Source: an uncultured Opitutales bacterium (GTDB taxonomy: Bacteria > Verrucomicrobiota > Verrucomicrobiia > Opitutales > Intestinicryptomonadaceae). From it: 64,000 bases of DNA. Positions within the stretch are counted from its first letter, which is position 1. Each line of letters starts with the position of its first letter. The DNA is taken from NCBI GenBank assembly GCA_944389175.1, contig CALXLK010000007.1, forward strand, positions 62,001 through 126,000, in the 5' to 3' direction. Position numbers and translations under genes: made by a program. Shown here piece by piece: positions 7,687-10,260 of this stretch. The notes under the pieces are model-generated. The model was not told the origin of the DNA. It made no database searches and was given only the letters and a program-made list of their open reading frames with translations.

Positions 7687-7734
7687 TCCCCCCCCCCACA
7701 CACACCACCACACACACACATACACACATACACA
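7687..7734. repeat. Poly-C and CA microsatellite
   Basis: A run of about ten C residues runs directly into CACACACACC, CACACACACACA and ACACATACACA units. Such tracts are prone to slippage. It lies outside any gene. Confidence 0.8.
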
Positions 7735-7746
7735 GCTCTTTCTAAC

Positions 7747-7771
7747 TATCTATGCGTACTACGCATAGATA
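7747..7771. repeat. Perfect 12-bp inverted repeat
   Basis: TATCTATGCGTA (7747-7758), one C, then TACGCATAGATA (7760-7771). The arms match at every base. There is no T tract after it, so it looks more like a protein-binding site or cruciform than a terminator. Confidence 0.7.
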
Positions 7772-8262
7772 TATTCTCTCCCCCGGCTCGCCCTATTCTA
7801 TATACATATAATGATGGCGCGCATGCGCGCGCGTTCGGATAGGCGGGCGTGCTTGCATATGTGTTGGAGGCGACCCAAATATATGTTACCTATTGCCGCT
7901 TTCGCCCATTCGGCGCCCCGGTGCGCGGGTGCGCTAGCTTCTATTATTAATGGAAGGACGGGTCTATATTTGAACGCTTATGGGCGCTCTCTGAGAGCAG
8001 GGAAAGTATGAGAAAGTATGTTATTGCGGCAAATCTGGTGCGTTTTTCTTTCGTGTAAGGGGCATGAGAGTGTCGGGAGGAACATGGCGATACTGTGTGC
8101 GCATTCGTTGCCAAGTAGTGCCAATGTGGGACGTTCTATGTGCGCGCCTGTGACATTTTGGCGCATAATTGTGCCCGTAAAGACAAATCCTTAACGGCCT
8201 TTATTGGCGCAAAGTTTCTAACTGGCTTATTTTCAGGGAGCATTTGCCGAGAATAAAAAAAA

Positions 8263-8278
8263 TGGCACGGATTTTGCT
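8263..8278 (+). promoter_or_regulatory. Consensus sigma-54 (-24/-12) promoter of dnaK
   Basis: TGGCACG (8263-8269), four bases, TTGCT (8274-8278): this matches the sigma-54 consensus TGGCACG-N4-TTGCW at all fixed positions, with exactly 10 bp between the -24 GG and the -12 GC. The predicted start near 8289 leaves a leader of about 20 bases holding the ribosome binding site AGAAGGA (8292-8298) before the dnaK ATG at 8308, so the geometry is right. An activator binding site further upstream is not identified. Confidence 0.75.
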
Positions 8279-8307
8279 AATGATAAAAAACAGAAGGAAT
8301 TAAAACT

Positions 8308-10260
8308 ATGAGTAAAATATTAGGTATAGACTTAGGTACAACAAACTCATGTATGGCTGTAATGGAAGGCGGCGAAAGCACCGTTATTCCGAACAGGGAA
8401 GGCGGCAGAACCACCCCTTCAATAGTTGCATTTGCTAAAAACGGCGAACGTCTGGTAGGCCAGGCGGCTAAACGTCAGGCTATCACGAATCCGGCGAACA
8501 CCATATTCTCTGTCAAGAGGCTTATGGGCAGAAAGTTTGCCGAAGTTCAGGATTTGGCGAAGGCTCTACCGTACAAGGTTGTAGAAGGTTCAAACGGGGC
8601 GGCGGCCATCGAATGCGAGGTCGCCGGGAAGACTGAAAGGTTCACGCCCGAGCAGATTTCTGCAATAATATTGCAGCAGCTCAAGGCCGATGCGGAATCG
8701 TACTTGGGCGAGAAAATCACGGAGGCCGTTATTACGGTTCCGGCTTACTTTAACGACGCCCAGCGTCAGGCCACTAAAGACGCGGGTACTATTGCCGGCC
8801 TCGACGTCAAGAGAATTGTCAACGAGCCCACGGCTGCTTCTTTGGCCTACGGCTTGGACAAGAAAAACGACGAGACTATTGCAGTGTATGACCTCGGTGG
8901 CGGCACGTTCGATGTGTCGATTCTTGAAATTGGCGACGGCGTCTTTGAAGTAAAGGCCACAAACGGCGACACGCAGTTGGGCGGCGACAATTGGGATACA
9001 GCCATAATGAATTGGCTTATCAACGATTTCAAGGCTCAAAACGGCATAGACTTGCGCAACGACCCGATGGCGATGCAGCGCTTGAAGGAAGAGGCCGAAA
9101 AGGCCAAGATAGCGTTGTCTTCGGCGCAGTCGACAGACATCAACCTGCCCTTTATCACGGCCGACGCCACAGGCCCGAAACACTTGAACGTTACGCTGAC
9201 GAGGGCGAAACTCGAGCAGCTCACCGACGATCTGGTGCAGCGCACGATAAAGCCCTTTGAGGATTGCCTGCGCGACGCGGGTCTGAGCAAGGGCGACATT
9301 GACGAATTGGTGCTCGTCGGCGGTATGACCCGTATGCCGAAGGTTGTCGAGGTTGCCAACCAGCTCGCCGGCAAAGAGGCGCACAAGGGTGTTAACCCCG
9401 ATGAAGTTGTAGCCCGCGGTGCCGCTATTCAGGGCGGTGTTTTGCAAGGCGACGTCCGCGATGTTCTTTTGTTGGATGTTACCCCGCTTACGCTTTCCAT
9501 TGAGACTGCAGGCGGCGTGTCAACGCCCATGATAGAGCGCAATACGACAATTCCTAAGAAACATTCGCAGGTGTTCTCGACATACTCCGACAATCAAACT
9601 GCAGTCGACATTCACGTCTTGCAGGGCGAGCGTCCGATGGCTAAGGACAACAAGCTCATCGGCAACTTCCGCTTGGACGGCATTGCTCCGGCTCCGAGAG
9701 GCCTGCCGCAGATCGAGGTTACATTTGACATAGACGCCAACGGCATTCTCAACGTCAGCGCCAAGGATAAGAGTTCCGGCAAGGAGCAGAAGATTACCAT
9801 TACCAACTCCAGCGGTCTGAGCAAAGACGAGGTTGAAAAGATGCGTAAAGAGGCCGAGATGCACGCGGCCGAAGATACGCTCTTGAAAGAGACCGCCGAG
9901 ACGCGCAACGAGCTTGACAACATGGTGTATTCTCTCGAAAAGCAGCTCAAAGAAGCAGGCGATAAGATTCCGGCTTCTGTCAAGAGCGCTTTCGATACCG
10001 AGATCGCCTCGGCTAAGAAGGTTTTGGATAACCGCGAGGCCAAGAAAGACGAGCTTGTGGCGGCAAAAGATAGCCTCATGAAGGTAATCGAGGCCAACGC
10101 GCAGAGTTTGCAGGCTGCCGCGCAGGCGGCTCAGGGCGCAGCGGCCCAAGGCGCTTCGGCGGGTTCTGCCCAACAGGGCGCTTCCCAAGCCGACAAGTCT
10201 GGCAAGGGCAATGTCCAAGACGCCGACTTTGAGGTTGTGGACGACGATCCCAAGAAATAG
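8308..10260 (+). CDS. dnaK: Chaperone DnaK (Hsp70)
   Basis: ATP-dependent cytoplasmic chaperone that binds unfolded segments with DnaJ and GrpE. 650 residues, normal length. The nucleotide-binding domain starts [13 protein letters not shown] and shows [47 protein letters not shown] and LVGGMTRMP. The substrate domain follows ([30 protein letters not shown]), then a helical lid, an Ala/Gln/Gly-rich linker and the C-terminal acidic [10 protein letters not shown] Shine-Dalgarno AGAAGGA precedes the ATG. It is separated from groES by a terminator; dnaJ and grpE are not nearby. Expression is probably driven by the sigma-54 promoter just upstream, an unusual arrangement. Confidence 0.98.

Follow-up and report, generated by a model that had tools for sequence, protein, structure and literature searches.

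Conserved sigma-54-like sites upstream of dnaK in Verrucomicrobiota and their candidate activator

Bacterial chaperone genes are commonly controlled by HrcA and the CIRCE element or by a sigma-32-like factor, and the locus described here raises the question of whether dnaK may instead be transcribed with sigma-54. The locus lies in a 64,000-nucleotide stretch of DNA (hereafter, the window), in which dnaK occupies positions 8308 to 10260 of the forward strand, as identified by TIGR02350 (profile search, E = 8.8e-287) and NF001413, both over their cut-offs. An earlier note on the window had pointed to a perfect sigma-54 promoter just before this gene, followed by a leader and a Shine-Dalgarno sequence, and its sequence and coordinates proved to be exact. 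The -24/-12 element TGGCACGGATTTTGCT (TGGCACG and TTGCT separated by GATT) occupies positions 8263 to 8278 of the forward strand, as do all further features of the window on that strand given below, and the dnaK ATG follows 29 nt downstream of its 3′ end. Counting from the GC at -12 places the inferred transcription start at position 8289, where the note had expected it, although this is a count without transcript data. The leader would then be 19 nt long and include the Shine-Dalgarno-like sequence AGAAGGAA at positions 8292 to 8299, as read from the sequence. No other zero-mismatch occurrence of TGGCACG-N4-TTGCW exists in the window, and because the arithmetic chance of one is 0.015 per window, the note's estimate of one in tens was about right. 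With two mismatches allowed, there was no excess of the pattern (8 matches vs. 11.9 expected). The defining features of a sigma-54 promoter, namely GG at -24 and GC at -12 at a fixed spacing as well as upstream activator sites, are present, the latter as a phased array that is weak in the window. As far as can be judged from sequence, the element at 8263 to 8278 is very likely a working sigma-54 promoter.

Conservation of the element was assessed in 81 Verrucomicrobiota loci, consisting of the window and the best 80, by similarity, of at least 565 dnaK loci. Judged by the similarity of its DnaK, the window's genome groups with Opitutales-type Verrucomicrobiota. When the best sigma-54-like match in the 150 bp upstream of dnaK was tested, it was significant in 75 of these 81 loci (p < 0.05 against Markov shuffles), and no significant site was found by the same test in L038, L045, L051, L059, L065, and L096. 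Because this test presupposes the motif, every pair of trinucleotides within the 90 bp preceding dnaK was also counted, free of assumptions. The top pair was GGC-N8-TGC, which occurs in 67 of the 81 upstream regions (best 80 of at least 565 plus the window) compared to 1.6 expected. Similarly, GGCA-N7-TGCW was present in 56 of 81, with each of the other spacings from 4 to 19 in at most two. A second set of 30 loci, taken from the 45 genomes with a match amongst 54 searched, partly overlaps with the first, as the window and several first-set loci recur; it had sites in 29 of 30 loci, and 98 copies of the half-site described below compared to 14.8 expected.

Amongst the 76 dnaK sites with p ≤ 0.05, 47 end 10–15 nt before the start codon, nine end 16–31 nt before it, and 20 lie farther away. 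A site ending 10–15 nt before the start codon would leave a leader of approximately 0–5 nt, implying that the dnaK mRNA is almost leaderless in 47 of 76 loci, an inference that depends on site position only. A Shine-Dalgarno-like tetramer at -16 to -4 was found in 12 of the 47 close-site loci. With its inferred 19-nt leader and Shine-Dalgarno sequence, the window's species departs from most of its genus, in which distances of 12–15 nt prevail.

Many bacteria need DnaK continuously, and a sigma-54 promoter gives no transcript unless an activator acts on it. Both points favor the possibility that dnaK is transcribed mainly from an unrecognised housekeeping promoter and that the sigma-54 site is minor or part of a tandem arrangement. 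There is a precedent in the tandem sigma-66 and sigma-54 promoters of Chlamydia hrcA, as given in the accessible part of the source (PMC7482065). However, this possibility appears unlikely, as a scan with the Escherichia coli consensus detected nothing sigma-70-like in the 600 bp before dnaK in the window (the nearest such site ends approximately 665 bp before the gene), and the site near the start codon in most relatives would, from its position, give dnaK a near-leaderless mRNA of its own.

Farther upstream, unbiased pair counting and EM in 78 of the 81 loci (the others lacked a site or upstream sequence) identified the half-site TGNSNCA, typically TGTGACA or TGGGACA. Between -230 and -80, these 78 loci, which derive from the best 80 of at least 565 plus the window, contain 241 copies compared to 32.9 expected, and 63 of them have at least two. 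The half-sites cluster at about -190 to -110, and the spacing between them peaks at 10–11, 20–22, 32, and 42 bp, corresponding to one side of the helix. The array in the window is weaker than in most relatives. It includes TGTGACA at positions 8149 to 8155 (about -140), which received the top score of a PWM built without the window, and TGGCGCA 10 bp further at 8159 to 8165. Three weak half-sites with one mismatch each, AGTGCCA (8117 to 8123), TGGGACG (8127 to 8133), and TGTGCCC (8170 to 8176), are in helical register with low PWM scores. The role of a further TGGCGCA at 8205 to 8211 (about -84), which matches TGNSNCA and is closer than the usual array position, is uncertain. Another half-site candidate, TGNCA-N3-TGNCA, was dropped in favor of TGNSNCA, and models of 18–21 bp motifs upstream of dnaK returned AT-richness only. 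IHF-like sites at -95 to -35 are mildly enriched (60 of 80 loci with at most two mismatches vs. 40.8 expected; 46 vs. 41.1 in the other orientation). An IHF looping site in this interval is merely suggestive, and none was seen by eye in the same interval of the window. In six loci (L046, L052, L054, L055, L056, and L087), a divergent gene upstream of dnaK resembles, by reading, a LON substrate-binding-domain protein, and the array may therefore serve that gene as well. The window has a long gene-poor stretch upstream of dnaK, within which positions 7690 to 7771 harbor a C-run and AC-rich low-complexity sequence and then a perfect hairpin (TATCTATGCG-TACTA-CGCATAGATA).

The gene rpoN, the absence of which had been named as a refutation of the promoter, is encoded in the window's genome (2.29 Mb on 32 contigs, 92.8% complete), and the proposed search for enhancer-binding proteins recovered two with apparently complete architecture. 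A gene-content survey of 51 genomes (50 of the 80 relatives' genomes and that of the window) identified rpoN in 44 and did not find it in seven. Five small gut-type genomes (G011, G013, G020, G022, and G023) have a -24/-12-like site before dnaK and no rpoN that could be found, which may reflect either incomplete assembly or a relic promoter. The two enhancer-binding proteins are EBP1, with GAF, AAA+, and HTH domains on contig C8, and EBP2 on contig C2, which meets the domain criteria of the NtrC type with a receiver, a Sigma54_activat/AAA+ domain with GAFTGA, and a Fis-type HTH. A paralogue of EBP1 with the same GAF-AAA+-HTH arrangement, EBP3 (L004:877-2478, G000:C1), lacks the GAFTGA loop in its AAA+ domain and is perhaps a non-activating antagonist.

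Orthologues of EBP2 were collected in 45 of the 51 genomes (at least 48% identity, compared to at most 46% for full-length paralogues), although G007, G020, and G035 are less sure because the match is partial or a long row, and the protein of G044 is cut by a contig end. In six small genomes (G011, G012, G013, G014, G020, and G035), EBP2 stops right after the AAA+ domain, as examined with Pfam on two, and no HTH remnant was found near the truncated gene in these six. At least two half-sites precede dnaK in 36 of the 38 genomes in which EBP2 has the HTH and in none of the six without it (Fisher p = 4e-6). This p-value overstates independence because the genomes that lost the HTH group together on the EBP2 tree; that tree calls for two or more switches between presence and absence of the HTH. 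Two genomes, G004 and G007, depart from the pattern in having the HTH and fewer than two half-sites; in addition, G021, G032, G041, and G042 have at least two half-sites, with no EBP2 found. The joint loss of HTH and array, in the absence of binding data, suggests that EBP2 is the likely driver of the dnaK promoter. A histidine kinase gene adjoins EBP2 in several relatives and encodes PAS, HisKA, and HATPase domains by Pfam (one tested), and an orthologue with 45% identity is located apart from EBP2 on contig C14 of the window's genome.

Only two zero-mismatch copies of TGGCACG-N4-TTGCW occur in the 2.29-Mb genome, one before dnaK and one before clpB, the latter 13 nt before the ATG. Allowing up to one mismatch gave hardly any excess (20 vs. 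16), whereas the relaxed pattern TGGCAY-N6-TGCW matched 19 times genome-wide compared to four for the reversed control pattern. Most of the other relaxed matches are intragenic, with intergenic ones before the genes for PII, type III glutamine synthetase, glutamate synthase, and a porin-like protein (names read from translations). The sites before PII, glutamine synthetase III, and glutamate synthase (L020, L025, and L115 at G000:C6:44415, C8:82926, and C8:83240) indicate that sigma-54 probably serves nitrogen genes in this genome as well. The PII upstream region also has two TGNSNCA matches, and the half-site is thus not exclusive to chaperone genes. This, together with the complete EBP1 being encoded on the contig that also has the sites for glutamine synthetase and glutamate synthase, leaves room for the sigma-54 promoter of dnaK to be driven by a different activator, for example EBP1 with its GAF domain, in which case chaperone supply would follow the nitrogen state. 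Such an arrangement is improbable, as the array and the HTH of EBP2 disappear together. Moreover, TTGTAGC/GCTACAA words recur in all three nitrogen promoters, which differ in this from the dnaK array and appear to form a separate nitrogen group, although this was seen by eye and without statistics.

In a set of 30 clpB loci, read from 49 genomes with a match, significant sites were present in 18, and 57 half-sites were counted compared to 15.7 expected. Site and half-sites occurred together in only 11 of the 30, and no significant site was found in the last five of the list (L235–L239), which belong to lineages outside Opitutia. As a control, the same procedure was applied to groES, which could be located in 50 of the 81 loci. 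It yielded two significant sites in these 50 upstream regions and 21 half-sites compared to 20.7 expected, and groES-groEL was rejected as a target. Autoregulation of EBP2 was likewise rejected, as GGCA-N7-TGCW is absent within 200 nt upstream of its gene (39 loci; half-sites 37 vs. 23.1 expected).

The usual heat-shock controls seem to be missing from these genomes. HrcA was found in none of the 51 genomes by a search that detects 7 of 14 known ones in a control, and no genome of the 51 had an RpoH match (TIGR02392, a proteobacterial model) over the curated cut-off. In the window's genome, the model gave only two matches, to open frames of 697 and 263 aa, and neither came near the cut-off; many relatives, but not this genome, have sigma-70-family matches of 160–182 bits. 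No CIRCE element was found in the window with up to three mismatches allowed, the best CIRCE match in the 81 dnaK upstream regions has 5 mismatches in 18 positions, and dnaK does not qualify as a member of an HrcA/CIRCE or sigma-32 regulon. Textbook control by HrcA/CIRCE or a sigma-32-like factor, with the sigma-54 site arising by chance, would be the common bacterial solution but is scarcely credible given these results and the exact sigma-54 spacing kept in dozens of dnaK loci. In the part of the literature source that was accessible, HrcA is described as missing from Verrucomicrobia and AtoC as conserved throughout the superphylum (PMC4989314). Sigma-54 and the activator array probably stand in for the usual controls in these Verrucomicrobia.

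The preferred explanation, with a probability of roughly 0.75, is that a sigma-54/EBP2 switch controls dnaK and clpB. The sites, their geometry and conservation, the phased array, the gene content, and the co-loss of HTH and array on which it draws are observed; sigma-54 use, the identity of the activator, its phosphorylation, and the signal are inferred. The enhancer-dependent control envisaged in the earlier note is supported by rpoN, the enhancer-binding proteins, the conserved spacing, the phased array, and the lack of HrcA and RpoH matches, with the start site remaining an inference. In the proposed mechanism, RNA polymerase with sigma-54 would transcribe dnaK from 8263 to 8278, and the NtrC-type activator EBP2 would bind the phased TGNSNCA half-sites approximately 110–190 bp upstream, loop to the polymerase, and open the promoter by ATP hydrolysis. 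The PAS-histidine kinase, represented by the orthologue on C14, would probably phosphorylate EBP2 according to conditions in the cytoplasm, for instance damage to proteins; that the signal is heat or protein damage is inferred from the targets only. The gene clpB would be under the same switch and groES-groEL outside it, and the DnaK-ClpB disaggregation pair would therefore be supplied together.

Control of heat-shock genes by sigma-54 has several parallels. The Escherichia coli heat-shock gene ibpB, which encodes a small heat-shock protein, likewise has a sigma-54 promoter, there as a side promoter and in an organism that uses sigma-32. In Flavobacterium psychrophilum, transcription start site mapping placed sigma-54 promoters (motif SM4) before dnaK, clpB, groESL, grpE-dnaJ, htpG, and lon, with no activator assigned in the accessible part of the paper (PMC9723704). 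The -24/-12 promoters before dnaK and clpB are thus common to both, whereas the Verrucomicrobia, a different phylum, differ in the exclusion of groES, the proposed activator and array, and the near-leaderless position. In Chlamydia, of the same superphylum, a sigma-54 site is also found at a chaperone operon (hrcA-grpE-dnaK), and the activator CtcC/AtoC has no DNA-binding domain, as does EBP2 in the six small genomes (PMC7482065 and PMC8762339, as far as accessible). However, Chlamydia has HrcA and a tandem sigma-66 promoter, whereas here HrcA was not found and most activators keep the HTH and the array. A PSSM survey reported an enrichment of predicted sigma-54 promoters in the DnaK, GroE, and GrpE groups of Planctomycetota and Bacteroidota, and its accessible part names neither Opitutia nor an activator or array (PMC12316311). 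Sigma-54 control of chaperones is therefore not new in kind, as it is known in Flavobacterium and Chlamydia, although no description of a sigma-54/EBP2 chaperone system in Verrucomicrobia or Opitutia was found in the titles and abstract openings of the open-licence literature. EBP2 itself resembles NtrC/AtoC-type proteins in its domains but differs in that its proposed targets are chaperones and in its kinase gene, which lies next to it in several relatives and elsewhere in the window's genome.

Bacteria without HrcA and sigma-32 need another form of chaperone control, for which the Verrucomicrobiota offer a candidate comprising an activator, a kinase, landing sites, a promoter, and two targets. 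A broader reading, which is tentative and stands at slightly less than even odds, is that Verrucomicrobiota respond to protein damage chiefly through the sigma-54/EBP2 two-component switch, in place of HrcA and sigma-32. Its core targets would be dnaK and clpB, and the dnaK mRNA of Opitutia would be almost leaderless. As gut symbionts shrank, their activator may have shed its DNA-binding domain and the promoter its enhancer, resulting in enhancer-free sigma-54 control of chaperones in parallel to Chlamydia. The joint disappearance of the enhancer and the DNA-binding domain of the presumed activator would represent a natural experiment, and the position of the sites predicts that sigma-54 polymerase makes a class of mRNAs with almost no leader. 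In L261, L267, L279, and other loci, GGCAT or GGC abuts the dnaK start codon, where the mRNA 5′ end is inferred to lie, for reasons that are unexplained, and GGC is the commonest triplet directly before the start codon (7 of 47 loci).
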